Assembly: GCA_022826585.1 (NCBI GenBank)
Contig: JAJDUR010000088.1
Span: 35,891 to 99,890 of the forward strand
DNA from: Dehalococcoidia bacterium
GTDB lineage: Bacteria; Chloroflexota; Dehalococcoidia; Tepidiformales; Tepidiformaceae
Length of the DNA: 64,000 nucleotides
Direction: 5' to 3'
Shown: piece after piece, positions 49,153-58,719 of the stretch
How the letters are laid out: each line of letters opens with the position of its first letter
Numbering within the stretch: the stretch's first letter is position 1
Notes under the pieces: generated by a model
The model's input: only the letters and a program-made list of their open reading frames with translations
Database searches by the model: none
What the model was told of the DNA's origin: nothing
Made by a program: the position numbers and the translations under genes

Positions 49153-50013
49153 CTACCGCTCCGCCCGCCGCTGCGCATGCGCCACCAGCTCCTCCACCCC
49201 CGCCACCGGGTCGGGAATGCCGGCGTCGGGCGGACTGATCGCCCGCACGATCGCGAGGTGCTCGATCGCCCGCACCACCACCCATCGCCACATCAGTTCG
49301 GTGTCGAAGCGGGCCACGCTGCGGTACGCCCGCAGGTAGAGCCCCGTCGCGATCGGCCGGAAGAACCGTGTGATCAGCCGCAGGGCCGGACTCGGGTCGA
49401 GCGGTTCCCCCAGCCACAGCAACGCCGTCGACCGCGCCACGTCCGACTCGATCGGCCCTGCCGCGCAGAACCCCCAGTCGATGACCACCCGCCGCCCGTT
49501 CGGCTCCAGCAGGATGTTCCCCGGGTGGAAGTCGCTGTGGCAGAAGCGGTCGCCCTCCTCCAGCCCTGCCAGCGCCTCCTCGGCGATGGCCGCCAGGTGC
49601 GGTGGCACCTCCACGTTCCCGATCCACTCCCGCACCCGCTCGTGCGCCGTCGCCAGCCCGTCCGGAGCTGGGAGCGCGTTCAGGCGCGCGTGAATGCGGC
49701 CCGTCGTCCACGCCTCCCGTGGCATCAGCCACGGCTTCCGCCCCACCAGGTCGAGCAGGTTCTCCCCGTCGATGCGCTCCATGATGCTGCCTTCGCGCCC
49801 GCCGAGGCTCATCGCCTCGCCGATGCGTGGCGCCGGGATGCCCCCCGCAAGCGCCGCCGGGATCGCGATCCGCTCCGGCTCGATGCTGCGCTCGTGCCCC
49901 TCCCGGAACAGGCGCAGGGCCTGCCCGTCTTCCCACGCGAAGATCTCCGCCTCGTACCCCTCGCCCAGCTTCTCGAGGCTGGCCACGTCGACGTCCGGGC
50001 CGTCTCCGCTCAT
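49153..50013 (-). CDS. Aminoglycoside phosphotransferase-like (APH) family protein
   Basis: FCHSDFHPGNILLEPNGRRVVIDWGFCAAGP catalytic loop. Confidence 0.88.
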   Translation of the reverse strand: MSGDGPDVDVASLEKLGEGYEAEIFAWEDGQALRLFREGHERSIEPERIAIPAALAGGIPAPRIGEAMSLGGREGSIMERIDGENLLDLVGRKPWLMPREAWTTGRIHARLNALPAPDGLATAHERVREWIGNVEVPPHLAAIAEEALAGLEEGDRFCHSDFHPGNILLEPNGRRVVIDWGFCAAGPIESDVARSTALLWLGEPLDPSPALRLITRFFRPIATGLYLRAYRSVARFDTELMWRWVVVRAIEHLAIVRAISPPDAGIPDPVAGVEELVAHAQRRAER

Positions 50014-51386
50014 GACCGATCCTCGCTCTCGGCCAGCAGCGCCGCCGTTCCCCCCATGCGCCGCGCGATGCGCTTCGCCTCCTCCTTGTCCCCCGGCGCC
50101 AGTTCCCCGTCCAGCACGAGCGTGCTCAGCCGCTCCTTGATGCGCGCGATCCACGGACCCGGTTCCCGCCCCAGCAGCGCCATCAGCTCGCGCCCGTCCA
50201 GCGGACTCTCCGCCCGCAGCATGGCCGCCTCCTCCGCCTCCACCCGCTCGCAGGCCTCCTCCAGGCGGTCGTGGTACTCGTTGTCGTCGTAGGCGTGGCT
50301 GGCGTTGTCGGCGCGTTTCAGCGCGAGCAGGTCGCGCCAGTGCCCATCCATCCGCCGCATGAAGCGTCGCACCAGCCGACCGTCGTCGGGGTCTGGCCGG
50401 TCCATATGGCGCCGTACGAGCAGGGTCAGCAGCGCACCCTCGCGCTTGCCCAGGCGCAGCCGCTCCGTAAGCGCCTCCGCCATCTCCGCCCCCACGATCT
50501 CGTGCCGGTAGAACCCCCACTCGCCGTTCTGCTTCACGTGCCGCACGGGCGGCTTCCCCAGGTCGTGCAGCAGCGCCGCCCAGCGCCGCAGCGACAGGCT
50601 CGCCTCGTCCGTCGCGATCGCCTCTACCGTCGCCGTCGTGTGCCCCCACACGTCGAACTTGTGGAAGCGGTTCTGCTCGCAACCCGGCATGGGCGCCAGC
50701 TCCGGGAGCACGTGTGGCAGCGCGCCGATCTCGTTCAGCGCGTCCAGCCCCGCTTTCGGGTGCTTCCCCCGCAGCAGCCGCTCAATCTCCGCCGTCACCC
50801 GCTCCTGCGAGAGCGTCCCCAGCAGCTCCACCGACTCCTCCATCGCCGCCTTCGTCTCCTCCTCGATCAAGAACCCGAGCTGGCTCACGAAGCGCACGCC
50901 CCGGAGGATGCGAAGCGGGTCTTCAGCGAAGCGCGTGCGCGGGTCGCCCGGCGCCCGCAGCAGCCCCCGCTCGATGTCATCCCGGCCCCCGAACGGGTCA
51001 CGAGGCTCGCCCGTGACCGTGTTCCTCGCGATCGCGTTCACCGTGAAGTCGCGCCGCGCGAGGTCCTCGTCGATCGAGCTCCCGAAGGTCACGTCCGGCC
51101 AGCGGCTCCCCGCCGTGTAGCTGTCCCCCCGGAACGTCGTGACCTCCGCCAGTCCCTCATCGAGCAGGACGCCCGTCGTCCCGAACCGCTGCCCGATCGT
51201 TGCGACCGTCGCCCCCAGCCCCTTCGCGATTCGCTCGCACTCGTCCGGCGGCGCGCTCGTCGCGAAGTCGGCGTCGCCCGTTGGTGGGAGGCCCCGAAGC
51301 TCGTCGCGCACCAGCCCGCCGGCCAGCCACAGCTCGTGCCCGGCCTCGGCGAACGCCTCGATCAGCGCCTCACGCGTCGGAGTCAT
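50010..51386 (-). CDS. CCA tRNA nucleotidyltransferase / poly(A) polymerase family with HD domain
   Basis: LWLAGGLVRDELRGLPPTGDADFATSA; RRDFTVNAIA; DPFGGRDDIERGLLRAPGDPRTRFAEDPLRILRGVRF; WAALLHDLGKPPVR HD motif. Confidence 0.92.
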   Translation of the reverse strand: MTPTREALIEAFAEAGHELWLAGGLVRDELRGLPPTGDADFATSAPPDECERIAKGLGATVATIGQRFGTTGVLLDEGLAEVTTFRGDSYTAGSRWPDVTFGSSIDEDLARRDFTVNAIARNTVTGEPRDPFGGRDDIERGLLRAPGDPRTRFAEDPLRILRGVRFVSQLGFLIEEETKAAMEESVELLGTLSQERVTAEIERLLRGKHPKAGLDALNEIGALPHVLPELAPMPGCEQNRFHKFDVWGHTTATVEAIATDEASLSLRRWAALLHDLGKPPVRHVKQNGEWGFYRHEIVGAEMAEALTERLRLGKREGALLTLLVRRHMDRPDPDDGRLVRRFMRRMDGHWRDLLALKRADNASHAYDDNEYHDRLEEACERVEAEEAAMLRAESPLDGRELMALLGREPGPWIARIKERLSTLVLDGELAPGDKEEAKRIARRMGGTAALLAESEDRS

Positions 51387-51445
51387 GTCTCGATTGTAGC
51401 TCCGCTTTGCCACTCAGCCGCTCCACACATCCGTCCCCCCTCAGC

Positions 51446-51530
51446 GAGGGTAGCGAGCGCGCTCCTCAGCCGCGCGACAGCGCGGCGCTCTCCTCAATAC
51501 TCAGCCGCGCGCAGCGCGGCGCTCTCCTCC
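51446..51530. repeat. Cluster of palindromic ~30-nt units (array A)
   Basis: CTCAGCGAGGGTAGCGAGCGCGCTCCT; CTCAGCCGCGCGACAGCGCGGCGCTCTCCTC; CTCAGCCGCGCGCAGCGCGGCGCTCTCCTC. Confidence 0.85.
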
Positions 51531-51994
51531 ACCCGAAGGGTGTAGTACATCCCGCCCTCGTAGTGCCCCGCGATGTCGCAGTACAGCACGTACCGCCCCG
51601 GCGGCAGGCTGAAGGTGCGCCCCTCCGACCCACCGGGCAGGACCGTCTCCACCGTCCCAACCAGCTCCCCCGCCGCCTCCAGGTCCACGCGCCCCTTCGA
51701 GATGGGCAGTTCCTCCCCCTCCAGGTCCGTCCGCACGACCACGAAGCTGTGCCGCACCCCGTCCGCGTTCGACAGCTCGAAGCGCAGGTCCCCGCTCGGC
51801 ACCGCCAGCAGCTCCCCACCCTCCGCCGACCCCAGCCGCCACGCCCCCACCACCTGCACATTCCCCTCGCTGTCGATCACGCGCAGATCGCCGTGCGAAT
51901 GCGAGTGCGCGTGCCACCCCACCACCGCCACCGCCGCCCCGATGGCCAGCACCAGCCCCACGAACACGAACTGCCTTCGCGACAGGCTCCACAT
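51494..51994 (-). CDS. Membrane-anchored cupredoxin-like protein
   Basis: N-terminal TM (FVFVGLVLAIGAAVAVVGW), RHSFVVV and YVLYCDIAGHYEGGMYYTL Cu-ligand-like H/C/H/M pattern; C-terminus EESAALRAAEY lies in repeat array A. Confidence 0.75.
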   Translation of the reverse strand: MWSLSRRQFVFVGLVLAIGAAVAVVGWHAHSHSHGDLRVIDSEGNVQVVGAWRLGSAEGGELLAVPSGDLRFELSNADGVRHSFVVVRTDLEGEELPISKGRVDLEAAGELVGTVETVLPGGSEGRTFSLPPGRYVLYCDIAGHYEGGMYYTLRVEESAALRAAEY

Positions 51995-52035
51995 GCTTCC
52001 ATGGTAGCGCGCCGTCGGAGTGGTAGGGTGATCCT

Positions 52036-52305
52036 GTGCGAGTCACCGTGCGCCTCTCTGCTAGGGATGTCGCGTTTCTCAATCGGTACGTTGAGGCATC
52101 CGATGAGCCGTCACGTTCCGCGGTCGTGCGCAAGGCGCTCGCACGCTTTCGCGAAGAGGAACTCAGACGCCAATACTCCGAGCTGTGGGCGGAGTGGGAC
52201 GAAGAGGAGGATGCAATCTGGGAGGTGACGCTTGCGGATGGGTTAGAGGACGAGCCGGAGGGCGTTTGGGAGGGCCTTGGTGCCGATCCTGACCTCCACC
52301 TCTAG
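52036..52305 (+). CDS. Ribbon-helix-helix (CopG-like) protein, antitoxin-like
   Basis: VTVRLSARDVAFLNRYVEASDEPSRSAVVRKALARFREEELRRQY then acidic tail; GTG start with TAGGGT 6 nt upstream. Confidence 0.7.
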   Translation: MRVTVRLSARDVAFLNRYVEASDEPSRSAVVRKALARFREEELRRQYSELWAEWDEEEDAIWEVTLADGLEDEPEGVWEGLGADPDLHL

Positions 52306-52320
52306 CGTATCGTTCCCGGC

Positions 52321-53292
52321 ATGGCACCAATGAAGTTCGGCGTGGTCCTTCCCATGATCGGCTCCCTCGCGAGCACCGACGCGATCGATGCCGTCTGCGA
52401 CAAGGCCGAGGAGGTCGGCCTCGACTCCATCTGGGTCATCGACCACATCCTCCTCCCCTACAGCATCGGCGCGAAGTACCCCTACAACCTCACCGGCGAG
52501 TGGGCCGCCGGCCAGGGGCCCTGGTGGGACGCCTTCTCGATCATGACCTACGCCGCCGCCCGCACGAGCACCGTCGAGCTCGGCAGCTGCGTCATCATCC
52601 TCCCCTACCGCCACCCCGTTCACACCGCCAAGATCGTCGCCACCATCGACCAGCTCTCGCGCGGGCGCGTCCAGTTCGGCATCGGCGTCGGCTGGATGAA
52701 GGACGAGTTCGAGAACCTCCAGCTCGACTCCTTCCACCACCGCGGCGCCCTCGTCAACGAGCAGATCGAGGTCTTCAAGGAAGTATGGGCGAACGACCCC
52801 GCCTCCTTCGACGGCGACTACTACCGCTTCAACGAGGTGAGCGTCACCCCGAAGCCGTACCAGGACCCCCATCCGCCCCTCCTCGTCGGCGGCAACACGA
52901 CCGCCGCCCTCGATCGCACCGCCGCCCTCTGCGACGGCTGGCTCGGCATCAGCCTCCGCCCCCACCAGCTCGCCGAGCACCGCGCCCGCCTGCTCCAGCG
53001 CTGCGAGGTCCACGACCGCGACGGCACCGACATGCCCATCGCCATGCTCCACGGCATCAACCTCACCGACGACCCCGATCACCGCGCCACCCTCGCCGAC
53101 CACGAGCGCGCCCAGAGCGTCACCGGAACCGTCGAGCAGGTCGTCGAAGAGCTGCGCGAGTTCGAGGAAGCCGGCCTGACGCACATCATCGCCTCCGCCC
53201 GCCGCTTCGGCCGCCCCGGAGGCGGCCTCCAGGCCGTCCTCGACGGCCTCGACACCCTCGCGCACGACATCATCCCCGCCGTCCGCGCCTAG
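52321..53292 (+). CDS. LLM class (probably F420-dependent) oxidoreductase
   Basis: KFGVVLPMIGSLASTDAIDAVCDKAEEVGLDSIWVIDHI; LSRGRVQFGIGVGWMKDEF. Confidence 0.9.
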   Translation: MAPMKFGVVLPMIGSLASTDAIDAVCDKAEEVGLDSIWVIDHILLPYSIGAKYPYNLTGEWAAGQGPWWDAFSIMTYAAARTSTVELGSCVIILPYRHPVHTAKIVATIDQLSRGRVQFGIGVGWMKDEFENLQLDSFHHRGALVNEQIEVFKEVWANDPASFDGDYYRFNEVSVTPKPYQDPHPPLLVGGNTTAALDRTAALCDGWLGISLRPHQLAEHRARLLQRCEVHDRDGTDMPIAMLHGINLTDDPDHRATLADHERAQSVTGTVEQVVEELREFEEAGLTHIIASARRFGRPGGGLQAVLDGLDTLAHDIIPAVRA

Positions 53293-53308
53293 AACGGACC
53301 GGCCAAAC

Positions 53309-53800
53309 ATGGCCCCCTCCCCCACGCGCCTCATCGGGCTCCTGCTACCCGCCCGCCTCTACCACTGGCTCGTCGTGCGCCTGGCGACCCTCCCCGGCGC
53401 CCCCGCCCGCCCGCTTCCCCACTCCGTCGTGCTCAGGCACCCACTGCATCCCCGTGGCGACCACTACCTGCTCATCCCGACCGACCACTGCCCCACGGTC
53501 CTCGAGTTGCCTCGCCCGGCCGCGCAGCGATTGGAAGAGGACATCCGAATGTGGCTTGATTCAAGCGGCTGGACCAACGTCCTCGTCGTGGTCAACTTCG
53601 GAGCCTTTCAGGAGACCCCGTTCCTCCATGTCCACCTGATTCGGGGCTCGGAACCGCCTACTGGCGGTCAGCCGGCGACGGACTGGCTGAGCGTTGAGCT
53701 GAGTGACGAGGGCGGGCCGGTCGTGTCGGGCCGTCGCGTCGTGCGCTACAGCACGGTCGACGACACGGCTGAGGTGGCGACCGAAGTACACCGAGCCTGA
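53309..53800 (+). CDS. HIT-like protein (degenerate histidine triad)
   Basis: PLHPRGDHYLLIPTDHCPTVLEL...VNFGAFQETPFLHVHLIRG. Confidence 0.5.
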   Translation: MAPSPTRLIGLLLPARLYHWLVVRLATLPGAPARPLPHSVVLRHPLHPRGDHYLLIPTDHCPTVLELPRPAAQRLEEDIRMWLDSSGWTNVLVVVNFGAFQETPFLHVHLIRGSEPPTGGQPATDWLSVELSDEGGPVVSGRRVVRYSTVDDTAEVATEVHRA

Positions 53801-53808
53801 CGCCCCCA

Positions 53809-53900
53809 CTCAGCGAGCAAGGCGAGCGCTCTCCTCAGCCGTGCGGCAGCGCGGCGCTCTTCTCACCCCTCAGCCCCGCGATAGCGGGGCGCTCTCCTCC
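53809..53900. repeat. Palindromic ~30-nt units (array B)
   Basis: CTCAGCGAGCAAGGCGAGCGCTCTCCTCAGCCGTGCGGCAGCGCGGCGCTCTTCTCACCCCTCAGCCCCGCGATAGCGGGGCGCTCTCCTC. Confidence 0.85.
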
Positions 53901-54818
53901 GCGAGCGAAGCTCGCCAGCGCCCCCAGGTGCTCGTCGAAGTCGAACACCGGGTGCAGCAGCATGTGCTCCGCCCCGATGTCGATGACCTCCTCGATCCGC
54001 TCGCGGATGTACGCCTCAGGACCCCACACCGCCACCGCGTTCGCGAGGTCCGCGCTCCCGTAGACGTGCGCGAACCACTCCCGCAGCCGCCCCTCCGCCC
54101 GCTCGCGGTCGTCGTCGATGGCCAGGTAGAGGCGCTTCGAGATGGTGAAGGTCGCCGGGTCGCGGTCCTGGTCCTCCAGGGCCTGCCGCAGGATGCGGAC
54201 GTGCTCGCGGAACTCCTCGATGCTGGACGAACCCGGCCCCATCCACGCATCCCCCAGTCGCACCGCCCGCCGCAACGCCGGCTCCACGCGTCCCCCGAAC
54301 CACACCGGCGGCCCCGGACGTTGCACCGGCTTCGGCTCCATGCGGATGTCCTTCAGCTGGAAGAACTCGCCCTCGTACGACGCCTTCCGCTCCGACCAGA
54401 GCGCCCGCATCACCGCCAGCGACTCCGTCAGGCGCTTCACCCGCCGCCCTGGAGGGATGCCGAAGGCCGCGTCGTGGGGCGCGTTCTCGTTGCCGATGCC
54501 GAACCCCGCATCCAGCCGCCCCCCGCTGAGCACGTCGAGCGTCGCCAGCTCCTTCGCGAGCTGTACCGGGTTGTGCTGGGGCAGCACGAACACGGCCGTG
54601 CCCAGCCGCACCCGCGAGGTGATCGCGGCCACGTAGGAGAGGAGGCTCACCGGCTCCAGGTTGCGGCTCCCGCCCAGCACCTGGTCGAGCGTCCACAGGC
54701 TCTGGAACCCCAGCTCCTCCGCCCGCCGCGCCACCCGCCCGATCGGCTCGAGGTCGACCGGTTCGCTCAGGGAGACCTGGGGAAGTGCAAAGCCAAAGGG
54801 AATGTCCGTTGGTGCCAT
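53835..54818 (-). CDS. LLM class flavin-dependent oxidoreductase
   Basis: FGFALPQVSLSEPVDLEPIGRVARRAEELGFQSLWTLDQVLG; LDVLSGGRLDAGFGIGNENAPHD; C-terminal tail ...GEKSAALPHG* lies in array B. Confidence 0.9.
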   Translation of the reverse strand: MAPTDIPFGFALPQVSLSEPVDLEPIGRVARRAEELGFQSLWTLDQVLGGSRNLEPVSLLSYVAAITSRVRLGTAVFVLPQHNPVQLAKELATLDVLSGGRLDAGFGIGNENAPHDAAFGIPPGRRVKRLTESLAVMRALWSERKASYEGEFFQLKDIRMEPKPVQRPGPPVWFGGRVEPALRRAVRLGDAWMGPGSSSIEEFREHVRILRQALEDQDRDPATFTISKRLYLAIDDDRERAEGRLREWFAHVYGSADLANAVAVWGPEAYIRERIEEVIDIGAEHMLLHPVFDFDEHLGALASFARGGERPAIAGLRGEKSAALPHG

Positions 54819-54870
54819 CAGTCACTCCATTCAGGGCCAGGCTGTGCTGTCTCGGGAGCGCCCCATCCTA

Positions 54871-54989
54871 CTCAGCGCGGCGGCGCCGCGCGCTCTCCTC
54901 AGCGAGGCCGCGCAGCGGCGAGCGCTCTCCTCAGGCGGGCGTCGGCCCGCCGCTGCACTCAGCCGCGCGGCAGCGCGGCGCTCTTCTCC
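54871..54989. repeat. Palindromic ~30-nt units (array C)
   Basis: CTCAGCGCGGCGGCGCCGCGCGCTCTCCTCAGCGAGGCCGCGCAGCGGCGAGCGCTCTCCTCAGGCGGGCGTCGGCCCGCCGCTGCACTCAGCCGCGCGGCAGCGCGGCGCTCTTCTC. Confidence 0.85.
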
Positions 54990-55010
54990 GTCAGGCGTAG
55001 AATCGCGCCT

Positions 55011-55511
55011 GTGGTAACGCCGAGGGGCCTTCGCGAGCTGTACGACCACCACGCCTGGTCGATGGGGACGCTCCTTGCGCATGCCGCCGACGTCTCCCAG
55101 GACCAGGCCGAAGCGATGCCCTGGAAAGGCGTTGCCAGTCTCGAGGACACACTCACGCACATCATCACGGCGGAGCGCTACTGGCTCGCCAACTGGCGGG
55201 GCGAGGAACGCCCGCACTTCGACTGGCCGGAGAGCATCGCCGAAGTTGCCGACCACTGGATAGCTCTCCAGGCCGACAGCCGGGCCTTCCTCGCCAGCCT
55301 GGAGGAGGCCGAGCTGGGGCGGATGCTCACCCTGCGCCAGCCCATCGGGGGCGGACGGGAGACGCTCGCCGCCGGCATCATGCACGTGCTCCTGCACGCC
55401 GCGCAGCACCGCGCCGAGGCGGCCCTGCTCTTATCCGACTTCGGCCGCTCCCCGGGCGAACTCGACTACATCGACTTCCTCGAACACCGGGAAGCGCTCT
55501 TACGACGCTAG
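55011..55511 (+). CDS. DinB-like family protein (copy 1)
   Basis: GLRELYDHHAWSMGTLLAHA...LEDTLTHIITAERYWLANWRGEE...AAGIMHVLLHAAQHRAEAALLLSDFGRSPGELDYIDFL; GTG start 7 nt after TAGAAT. Confidence 0.87.
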   Translation: MVTPRGLRELYDHHAWSMGTLLAHAADVSQDQAEAMPWKGVASLEDTLTHIITAERYWLANWRGEERPHFDWPESIAEVADHWIALQADSRAFLASLEEAELGRMLTLRQPIGGGRETLAAGIMHVLLHAAQHRAEAALLLSDFGRSPGELDYIDFLEHREALLRR

Positions 55512-55543
55512 GCCGCTCCCCGGCGCGCGAAGCGAGCGCTCTT
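55512..55543. repeat. Degenerate palindromic unit (array D)
   Basis: GGCCGCTCCCCGGCGCGCGAAGCGAGCGCTCTTC, same GAAGCGAGCGCTCT core. Confidence 0.6.
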
Positions 55544-55556
55544 CTACAATCCCGCC

Positions 55557-56063
55557 ATGGACGCCGCTGGCCTCCGAGAGCTGTACGACCATCACGCCTG
55601 GGCGATGGACCGCCTCCTCGCCCGTGCCCTGGAGGTCTCGCCCGAGGCCGCCGCCGAGCTCCCGCGCCCCGACGGGCTCAGCCTGCGCGACACCCTCGCG
55701 CACATCATCTCCGCCGAGGGCAACTGGCTCGCCCGTTTCCAACGTCGCGAACGGTACGGCAGCTTCCGCCCCGACAGCGTTGCCGGCGTGGCCGACGGCT
55801 GGATCGCTCTGCAGGCCGAAGTGCGGCTCTTCCTCGCGGGTCTGGATACCGCCGACCTCGGCCGCCCGATCGTGCGAGACACCCACTCCCGTGATCGCGG
55901 GACGTTGGGAGCGGGCATCACCCACGTCATCATGCACGGCGCCCAGCACACCGCCGAGGCCGCCGAGCTCCTGACCCGGCTCGGCCACTCCCCCGGACAG
56001 CTCGACTACATGGAGTTCCTCGACCTCCGCGAGCTCGACCTCCCCTTCTTCCGCCCCACGTGA
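55557..56063 (+). CDS. DinB-like family protein (copy 2)
   Basis: GLRELYDHHAWAMDRLLARAL...LRDTLAHIISAEGNWLARFQRRE...GAGITHVIMHGAQHTAEAAELLTRLGHSPGQLDYMEFL, clear paralog of upstream gene. Confidence 0.88.
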   Translation: MDAAGLRELYDHHAWAMDRLLARALEVSPEAAAELPRPDGLSLRDTLAHIISAEGNWLARFQRRERYGSFRPDSVAGVADGWIALQAEVRLFLAGLDTADLGRPIVRDTHSRDRGTLGAGITHVIMHGAQHTAEAAELLTRLGHSPGQLDYMEFLDLRELDLPFFRPT

Positions 56064-56069
56064 GACCGC

Positions 56070-57146
56070 CTACGCTCCGCCGGCCAGCCACTCCAGCCAG
56101 CGCCCGTGGTGGTCGCAGTACGCCAGGACTTCCTCCCGCGGCTCGCCACCCTCGAACGACACGAGCGTGAGCGTCGGGCGTGCCTCTCCATCCGCGGTGG
56201 GGCGGTACTCGCTCGAGAGCCAGTACAGGTCGCGCTCCGCTCCGGCCTCCGCGAGGATGTCGGCGAATCGCCGCCGCGCCTCGGGGCTGAACTGGTTGAG
56301 CGTGTGCGAGTGATAGATGCAGAGCGCCCTGTCGCGAGAGGCGCCGGCCAGGACGCTCCCCGCGAGCTCGAGTGCGTCCCCCTTGAGCAGGGTCGGTGGG
56401 TCCGTCTGCGCCAGGGCGACCGCAGCGTCAAGGCGCCGCATCCGTTCCCGTTCCTCCGGCCAGACCAGCGCCCGCAGCCATCGCACCGCCTCCGCGTCCC
56501 TGACGTCGACCGGGTTCAGGTCGATGCCCGCCCGGTCCGCGATGGCCAGCGGCCCCCGGGGAAGCGGCGGCTCGTGGCCGCCCCGTAGCTCGACCTCGAT
56601 GCGCAGCGGCGAGCCCGCGTCTCCCCACTGCCGCCCCGCCCCGTAGTCGAACCAGTAGCGGTCCCAGAGCAGGTTCAGGCCCGCGCTCGCCCCAACCTCG
56701 ACGAGGTGGAGCGGCTTGCCCCCGCTCCGCTGCGCGATAACCCCGAACGCCGGAAGCAGCAGCCCGCAGCGCTCCACCACGTTCGTCTGCACCCGACGCT
56801 CGCGGAGCAGCCCGGCTATCGCTTCCCCGTGCTCCTCGCAGAAGCGGCGGAAGTGCGGGAACGGGTCGCCGAGCCCCGGCGCCGGCTCCGAGACCGTCGG
56901 ATAGAAAGCCGCGAGGTCGTGCCTTGCCCCACCCAGCAGGAGGAAGTGCACGGCCGCGAACAGCAGGTTCGGCGCCGGCTGCTCGGGCCTCCCGCGCGCG
57001 GCCAGCGCGAGCAGCGCCTCGTCCTCGGCCACGCCCAGCGCGAGACGCTCGTACAACGTCGACGAACCGCGGCTCTCCAGCTCCGCGAACCACCTGAACT
57101 CCGTCGCCAGGTCGCGTTCATCCCTGGCCCCGCGCTCCCCTGTCAC
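56070..57146 (-). CDS. DUF2332-like protein
   Basis: FAELESRGSSTLYERLALGVAEDEALLALAARGRPEQPAPNLLFAAVHFLLLGG...VEVGASAGLNLLWDRY...CIYHSHTLNQFSPEARRRF. Confidence 0.85.
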   Translation of the reverse strand: MTGERGARDERDLATEFRWFAELESRGSSTLYERLALGVAEDEALLALAARGRPEQPAPNLLFAAVHFLLLGGARHDLAAFYPTVSEPAPGLGDPFPHFRRFCEEHGEAIAGLLRERRVQTNVVERCGLLLPAFGVIAQRSGGKPLHLVEVGASAGLNLLWDRYWFDYGAGRQWGDAGSPLRIEVELRGGHEPPLPRGPLAIADRAGIDLNPVDVRDAEAVRWLRALVWPEERERMRRLDAAVALAQTDPPTLLKGDALELAGSVLAGASRDRALCIYHSHTLNQFSPEARRRFADILAEAGAERDLYWLSSEYRPTADGEARPTLTLVSFEGGEPREEVLAYCDHHGRWLEWLAGGA

Positions 57147-57170
57147 CCAACGAGGATAGCAACGCGCTCC

Positions 57171-57294
57171 ACTCAGCGAGCGAAGCGAGCGCTCTCCTCA
57201 GCCACGCGGCAGCGGGGCGCTCTCCTCGTCCCTCAGTCGCGCCTCGCGAGCGCGCAGCAGTCGAGCGTTGACAGACAGGCCCGCGACGCTCTCC
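57171..57294. repeat. Palindromic ~30-nt units (array E)
   Basis: CTCAGCGAGCGAAGCGAGCGCTCTCCTCAGCCACGCGGCAGCGGGGCGCTCTCCTCGTCCCTCAGTCGCGCCTCGCGAGCGCGCAG... with terminal CGCTCTCC. Confidence 0.8.
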
Positions 57295-57307
57295 TAGAAT
57301 GCCGCCC

Positions 57308-57871
57308 ATGGACGCCAACGAGACCTCCGACTACGTCGAGCTGATGCAGCTCCCCATTCGTTACGGCCACGCCCTCGACATGCTCGGCCGCGCCCGCAGC
57401 CGCGACGACGACGCCCTCTACGAGCGCGGCCAGGGGATCCTGCGCACCGCCTTCGCCCAGGACTTCATCTTCGAGGACCTCAGCGCCGACCCCGTCAACG
57501 TCCACGGCGCCGACGGCTGGGCCGAGTTCTGCGCTCGCGCGCTCGGCTCATTCGGTGGGACGCAGCACTTCATCGCGCCGCCGCTCGTGCTCATCGACGA
57601 GCCTCCCGTCGAGCAGGATGGCGTCCGTCTCGGCGGCAAGGCGCGGCTGCGCAGCTACCTGCAGGCCACCCACACCCTCCCCGCCGAGGGCGAGGAGGTG
57701 CCCCCCGACACCACCGACAAGACTCCCACCCTCGCGGCGGGCACGAACACGGTCATCTACGGCACCTACGAGGATGAGTGCGTGCGCGAAGCGGTCGGCT
57801 GGCGGATCCGCCGCCGATCGCTCCGCTACACCCACATCGAAGGCCGCCCCTTCGACGTCTCCGGCGGCTAG
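57308..57871 (+). CDS. SnoaL/NTF2-like nuclear transport factor 2 family protein
   Basis: YVELMQLPIRYGHALDMLGRARSRDDDALYERGQGILRTAFAQDFIFEDLS...GWRIRRRSLRYTHIEG. Confidence 0.75.
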   Translation: MDANETSDYVELMQLPIRYGHALDMLGRARSRDDDALYERGQGILRTAFAQDFIFEDLSADPVNVHGADGWAEFCARALGSFGGTQHFIAPPLVLIDEPPVEQDGVRLGGKARLRSYLQATHTLPAEGEEVPPDTTDKTPTLAAGTNTVIYGTYEDECVREAVGWRIRRRSLRYTHIEGRPFDVSGG

Positions 57872-58719
57872 CCCCTCCCGGCTGCCGCCTCGATCGCACG
57901 CCGCGCGAACACCGCGGTCATCGCCCGGCGGTACTCCTCGCTGCCGTGCAGGTCCTCGTTCACGAAGTCCAGGACGTCGCCTGCGCCGGCGGCTGCCGAC
58001 GCTGCCCCATCGGGTAGCGACGCGCCCGACAGTGCGCCCTCGACGCCCGACAGGCGCTGCGCGTGGCTCGACGCGCCCGTCACGGCGACGCGCGCCGATG
58101 AGCACGTGCCCCCGTCGAGCGACAGGGCCGCCGCCACGCCCACCAGCGCGAACTTCGAGGCGCGCTGCTCCAGCTTGGCGTAGGCCGCGCTGCGGCACGC
58201 CTGGAAGCACACGCCCGTCACGATCTCGTCCTCGCCCAGGTCCACCGTCAGGATGTCCTGGAAGAAGTCCTCGGCCTGCACCTTGCGCTCGCCGTTCGGG
58301 CCCAGGACCGCGATCGTCGCGTCCAGCGCGACCATCACGGCCGGCAGGTCCGCGCCCGGGTCGGCGTGGGCGAGGCTGCCCCCGATCGTGCCCCGGTTGC
58401 GCACCTGCGCGTCGCCAATCGCGGCGGCCGTCTCGGCCACGATCGGCGCCTGATCGCGCAGCAGGTCGGAGGCCGCGATCTCGGCGTGCGTCATCGCCGC
58501 CCCGATCGCGATCTCCCCGTCGGTTTCCTGGATGCCCCGCAGTTCCTCAAGGCCCCCGATGTCGATCAGCAGGCCCGGCTCCGCCAGGCGCTGCTTCATC
58601 ATCGGAATGAGGCTGTGCCCGCCCGCGAGGAGCTTCGCCTCGGGACCGCCTTCCTGCAGGAGCGTCAGCGCCTCCGCGACGCTCGACGCGCGCTTGTATT
58701 CGAACGCGGTGGGAATCAC
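57868..58719 (-). CDS. Xanthine dehydrogenase-family FAD-binding subunit (CoxM-like)
   Basis: FEYKRASSVAEALTLLQEGGPEAKLLAGGHSLIPMMKQRLAEPGLLIDI; IGDAQVRNRGTIGGSLAHADPGADLPAVM; GTG start. Confidence 0.93.
   Translation of the reverse strand: MIPTAFEYKRASSVAEALTLLQEGGPEAKLLAGGHSLIPMMKQRLAEPGLLIDIGGLEELRGIQETDGEIAIGAAMTHAEIAASDLLRDQAPIVAETAAAIGDAQVRNRGTIGGSLAHADPGADLPAVMVALDATIAVLGPNGERKVQAEDFFQDILTVDLGEDEIVTGVCFQACRSAAYAKLEQRASKFALVGVAAALSLDGGTCSSARVAVTGASSHAQRLSGVEGALSGASLPDGAASAAAGAGDVLDFVNEDLHGSEEYRRAMTAVFARRAIEAAAGRG

Follow-up and report, generated by a model that had tools for sequence, protein, structure and literature searches.

A candidate REP-like family of palindromic repeats, restricted to one genus of Dehalococcoidia and common at gene ends

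The DNA analysed here, which we call the window, is a stretch of 64,000 nucleotides from the genome of a Dehalococcoidia bacterium. A patch of about 6 kb within it holds five arrays of small palindromic units, set among genes of an ordinary kind (luciferase-like, SoxE-like, DinB, DUF2332 and SnoaL). Ten units match the pattern CTCAG-N-GCTCTYYT exactly, beginning at 51465, 51500, 53809, 53834, 53869, 54871, 54898, 54958, 57172 and 57197, and four more, at 51440, 54930, 55519 and 57232, are degenerate. The CTCAG side is on the plus strand in all of them; the opposite, minus strand is the one we refer to as sense. A pattern scan found no units in the remainder of the window. The original prediction had put five intergenic arrays of palindromes in just these places, and they are there. 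It had also described the CTCAG flank as constant, which holds for the exact units and fails for the array at 55519, where CTCAG is missing.

Array 1 (51440-51528, minus strand) has three tandem hairpin units, a degenerate one at 51440-51467 followed by 51465-51494 and 51500-51528. A SoxE/sulfocyanin-like gene on the minus strand (51494-51994) enters the array, and its stop codon lies within. Array 2 (53809-53898, minus strand) occupies a convergent gap with units at 53809-53835, 53834-53863 and 53869-53898; the luciferase-like gene (53835-54818, minus strand) reads through the first unit in the sense direction and stops inside the array. The C-terminal codons of both proteins, ends included, are encoded by repeat units (53835-53900 and 51494-51530). 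Array 3 (54871-54987, minus strand) lies in a divergent gap, closely upstream of a TAGAAT box and of a DinB-family gene that starts at 55011 on the plus strand. Its units are 54871-54899, 54898-54931, 54930-54957 (with a degenerate flank) and 54958-54987. Array 4 is a single degenerate unit (55519-55545, minus strand) between two DinB-family genes, with TACAAT directly after it; these tandem genes (55011-55511 and 55557-56063) share DNA blocks that are about 70-85% identical. Array 5 (57172-57295, minus strand) stands in the divergent gap between a DUF2332 gene (56070-57146, minus strand) and a SnoaL-like gene that starts at 57299 on the plus strand. It comprises units at 57172-57198 and 57197-57226 and an expanded unit at 57232-57295, again with TAGAAT directly after. 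The TAGAAT and TACAAT boxes of arrays 3 to 5 (54996-55011, 55546-55557 and 57295-57309) abut or closely trail the unit tails and sit a few nucleotides before start codons, like leaderless promoters. Curated Rfam covariance models gave no match up to E=1 across 50000-58000.

Read on the sense strand, a unit is AGGAGAGC-7 nt-3/4 nt-7 nt-TGAG, and the element as a whole can be written [T(G)AG]-GAGAGC-7-bp stem-3/4-nt loop-stem-C-[TGAG]. The TGAG that closes one unit is the opening of the next, and arrays thus extend in tandem. The flanks are near-invariant, AGC...TGAG on the sense strand and CTCA...GCT on the CTCAG strand. Among 90 distinct hairpins, a set prefiltered for palindromes, 96.8% of stem cells are paired, compared with 70.8% after shuffling and at most 52.5% when the partners are slid. 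The same hairpins contain 131 two-sided stem changes against 40 in the shuffles and far fewer for slid partners; these changes occur at all seven pairs and are mostly from G-C to C-G. With the palindrome filter removed, a helix of 5 bp or more is found in 62% of 123 distinct cores defined by their flanks, and in 11% of shuffled ones. The evidence supports stems that co-vary strongly between fixed flanks, which is the compensatory, structure-level conservation that had been proposed from the window.

Palindromes can also be the footprint of a dimer, and the units might be binding sites for a protein, whether operators or architectural elements. Constant flanks would suit such a reading, as would the -10-like boxes beside some arrays. 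A sequence-specific dimer would not tolerate stem swaps from G-C to C-G that merely keep the pairing, however, nor do the neighbouring genes have a function in common, and the unpaired ends of the loops are conserved on a single strand; we regard binding sites as improbable. The loop ends deserve a closer look. On the CTCAG strand 50 of 70 tetraloops and 22 of 47 triloops begin with G and end with A, and position 2 of the tetraloop is A, C, G or T about equally often. Fixed unpaired ends next to a saturated position suggest a constraint on hairpins of one strand. The motifs cGNNAg and cGNAg rank with the most stable hairpin loops known in DNA, and a step involving single-stranded DNA is hinted at because the loop ends are fixed on the CTCAG strand. 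Selection on sense-strand RNA through G.U pairs was not seen: there are 6 G.U pairs against 15 A.C pairs, a weak asymmetry (p ~ 0.08 by an approximate binomial estimate). Folding whole arrays with DNA parameters did no better than folding shuffles, because the GC-rich units cross-pair.

How far does the family reach? We compared nine genomes of the genus, G000 (the host) to G008, of which G005 is a single contig. The host genome, further contigs included, has 43 exact pattern matches compared with 8 for a reversed-pattern control, and one of the 43 looks like chance. The window is a dense patch that contains 10 of them. Five sister species have clearly raised pattern counts and others a weaker excess; outside the genus the counts are about those of the control. 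A covariance model built from the 90 hairpins, a scan the original prediction had recommended, found 48 matches in G000, 41 in G001, 14 each in G002 and G003, 40 in G004, 15 in G005, 35 in G006, 36 in G007 and none in G008. Across 90 genomes of other genera it gave one weak match each in six and none in the others. The family is restricted to the genus and spread over whole genomes rather than local: the earlier view that there are no copies outside the 6 kb is right for the window and wrong for the genome and for seven other genomes of the genus. Copies occupy only about 10-20 sites per genome, at unrelated genes. Scanning a genome collection with the tandem pattern gave mostly chance matches among the matches listed; true copies are present in the Dehalococcoidia/Chloroflexi bins p16x63bins.9, APA_bin_86 and IRC1_bin_31. 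Judging by isolate names, several array-bearing bins appear to be of sponge origin. A literature search on such repeats in Dehalococcoidia turned up nothing relevant.

A second short repeat, about 30 nt long with the core CGCTCGACTGCTKCGCGCTCGC and an AT-richer edge, occurs at the apices of array hairpins. In the window it is present as CGCTCGACTGCTGCGCGCTCGC (57246-57267, minus strand), nested inside the hairpin apex of array 5's expanded unit, and it was seen at four further loci. One orthologous hairpin carries it in G007 and has a plain TGC loop in G004. It turned up only in six array-bearing genomes, with 3-9 copies in each, and not in G003, G005, G008 or three tested genomes of other genera.

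Where the arrays sit was counted after about 10 kb around the arrays of eight genomes had been gene-called with a simple codon-bias script. The counts cover arrays of at least two units (n=89), including orthologous arrays, which are not independent observations. A gene of the same sense lies 5' of the array in 66 of the 89, and the stop codon of 38 of these 66 falls between -15 and +10 nt; on the opposite side of the array the figure is 5 of 52. Arrays, which have one to five hairpins, usually begin within about 10 nt past the stop codon, typically with TAG running straight into GAGAGC. Once orthologues are collapsed, 17 distinct protein families abut arrays in this way. Several arrays that adjoin no stop codon belong to two tRNA families, tRNA-Gly(CCC) and tRNA-SeC, lying 5-9 nt past the tRNA in the same sense. 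The genus has a tRNA-SeC gene with a TCA anticodon, and an array lies immediately behind it in G001 and G004; in G005 the array is upstream. We rejected TAG-specific targeting: the abutting stop is TAG in 31 of 38 cases, but TAG accounts for 60% of stop codons in general here, and with each orthologous group counted once the figure of 12 of 17 is not significant (p = 0.46). Convergent gaps are over-represented (39 of 86 arrays against a baseline of 60 of 405) and divergent gaps under-represented (10 of 86 against 135 of 405). Roughly one array in four does not follow a gene end, as is the case for arrays 3-5 of the window, and many of these exceptions adjoin promoter-like TANNNT boxes that belong to a gene on the opposite strand. 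The functional polarity is the reverse of that in the original prediction, the CTCAG strand being usually antisense to the gene whose stop codon or tRNA 3' end abuts the array.

Within each contig of G000 the units all point the same way, as an oriented motif linked to replication or segregation, of the KOPS or chi kind, would have them do. Adjacent arrays in relatives nonetheless face opposite ways, and in the single-contig G005 the orientation alternates (-,+,-,+,-,-,+). No rule based on two replichores yields that alternation, which refutes a replichore-linked orientation unless G005 is exceptional, and we give the idea almost no credence.

The position of the arrays speaks more directly to another explanation, in which they are purely functional structures, multi-hairpin terminators or 3'-UTR elements, maintained by selection and of non-mobile origin. 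They lie in sense directly past stop codons and tRNA 3' ends, convergent gaps are enriched, and orthologous sites keep their stems while the loops change. Clusters of several hairpins a few tens of nucleotides past the stop, at up to 80 nt and with no need of a U-trail, have been proposed as intrinsic terminators (Gupta and Pal 2021, PMC8355165). Those clusters are no repeat family, whereas the hairpins in this genus come from dispersed repeats that have flanks in common and undergo turnover. So few sites at unrelated genes, the presence or absence of arrays between close relatives, their occurrence in some divergent gaps and the lack of any preference for G.U pairs on the sense strand all count against function as the whole story. 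The family-specific flank GAGAGC/CTGAG would be needless for a plain terminator. Like a canonical intrinsic terminator the arrays are found at 3' ends, with the quarter of exceptions noted above, but the U-tract is missing: the hairpins run into UGAG(UGG) on the sense strand, and those of the opposite strand into GCUCUYYU. Strict termination also fits poorly because one conserved array is followed after 4-10 nt by a gene in the same direction, in an acyl-CoA dehydrogenase/MGMT-like pair. We think selection alone an unlikely source of the arrays, with an appreciable chance nevertheless of being correct. A present-day role is another matter. Going by their sequence and position, transcribed arrays probably act as 3' hairpin clusters, serving as terminator, mRNA stabiliser or insulator; their RNA would form GC hairpin clusters that end or protect transcripts by termination, by blocking 3'-exonucleases or by insulation. 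In two species the array that follows one particular gene is preceded by an ordinary terminator-like hairpin (GGGGCCCTCCGGGGCCCCTTTC), and arrays are therefore not the sole type of terminator available.

Comparison of close species shows that arrays at conserved sites come, go and are remodelled rapidly. Orthologous sites have from one to five hairpins, whose stems are kept or swapped with pairing intact and whose loops differ. Behind the luciferase-like gene G000, G001 and G006 have an array, G003 and G004 a short remnant or an empty TGAG site, and G002 no array. At the tRNA-Gly site arrays are present in G003, G005, G006 and G007 and decayed or truncated in G004 and G000; G001 has CTGAG alone, and G002 and G008 have nothing. 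Species with no array at tRNA-Gly have no obvious replacement terminator there, a further point against strict termination. TGAG is found at the junction in the array-less or remnant states of both sites, which would fit insertion beside TGAG with no target duplication, with precise loss as an alternative.

What might have moved the units? The original prediction likened them to REP/BIME elements and called for a search for a RAYT. The RAYT/Y1 transposase domain PF01797 is present in other genera of the same family and in 0 of 9 genomes of this genus, the single-contig genome included, so the units lack the link to a transposase by which GTAG-type REPs are defined. No transposase or donor element for the repeats was found, and mobility is accordingly read from distribution only. 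Integron-type attC sites, or other cassette boundaries used by a tyrosine recombinase, would likewise be hairpin sites directly 3' of genes with loop features suggestive of single-stranded DNA. Yet no integron integrase (TIGR02249) scored above cut-off in six genomes, and the tyrosine-recombinase signal is generic and given by all 14 control genomes too. The sites form no cassette array; they are scattered, lie at the same genes across species and occur in both gene orientations. We disfavour attC sites as very improbable.

The likeness to REPs and BIMEs of the GTAG superfamily holds as an analogy in structure and clustering. The units are GC-rich imperfect palindromes of 20-40 nt whose hairpin foot bears a short unpaired tag; they are extragenic and multicopy, clustered in tens of copies, restricted to genus or species and often 3' of genes. 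It fails for the enzyme and for the tag, which is CTCA(G)/TGAG instead of GTAG. The architecture differs as well: clusters of 2-5 units with fixed linkers run head to tail with a common tag and strong polarity to the preceding gene end, whereas BIMEs alternate inverted REP units with spacer motifs. Mycobacterial MIRUs also are tandem intergenic units at stop codons in a fixed orientation; they differ in being longer, non-palindromic and located in operons at stop/start overlaps. A precedent for palindromic repeats with no dedicated transposase is the CGTC-tagged class of REPs (Di Nocera et al. 2013, PMC3733652); the same paper discusses REPs in the roles of terminator and mRNA stabiliser. Our units have no CGTC tag, and their constant flanks are CTCA and GCTCTYYT.

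Our preferred reading, to which we give a probability of roughly 0.6, is a new genus-specific family of non-autonomous, REP/BIME-like palindromes at transcription-unit ends. A REP-like non-autonomous element fits because the flanks are common and the units are clustered, genus-restricted, and gained and lost. Resembling REPs with neither the usual enzyme nor the usual signature, they look like a familiar type of element that arose anew and independently. Units would move to new sites or multiply by way of a hairpin of single-stranded DNA beside TGAG/TAG, mobilised by a putative enzyme acting in trans or in the past. Arrays may then persist at transcription-unit ends, where they would have a 3' hairpin role and do little harm to coding sequence. 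One could go further and imagine a RAYT-free mobile system of single-stranded DNA hairpins. Its putative enzyme would insert CTCA-tagged hairpins with cGNNAg or cGNAg loops beside TGAG/TAG, regenerating the target each time and allowing tandem growth at stops and tRNA ends, with the second ~30-nt repeat inserting at apices. This more specific proposal is speculative, and we doubt it more than we believe it.

Most descriptions of REP-like repeats involve a RAYT and the GTAG tag. A family that has another tag, lacks that enzyme, keeps strict polarity to gene ends and is often gained and lost among close relatives would be a natural system in which to compare how palindromic repeats originate and whether they are recruited as signals at 3' ends. 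Nearly the same site is occupied, empty or decayed in sister species, so these natural alleles allow a direct comparison of terminator and stability function.
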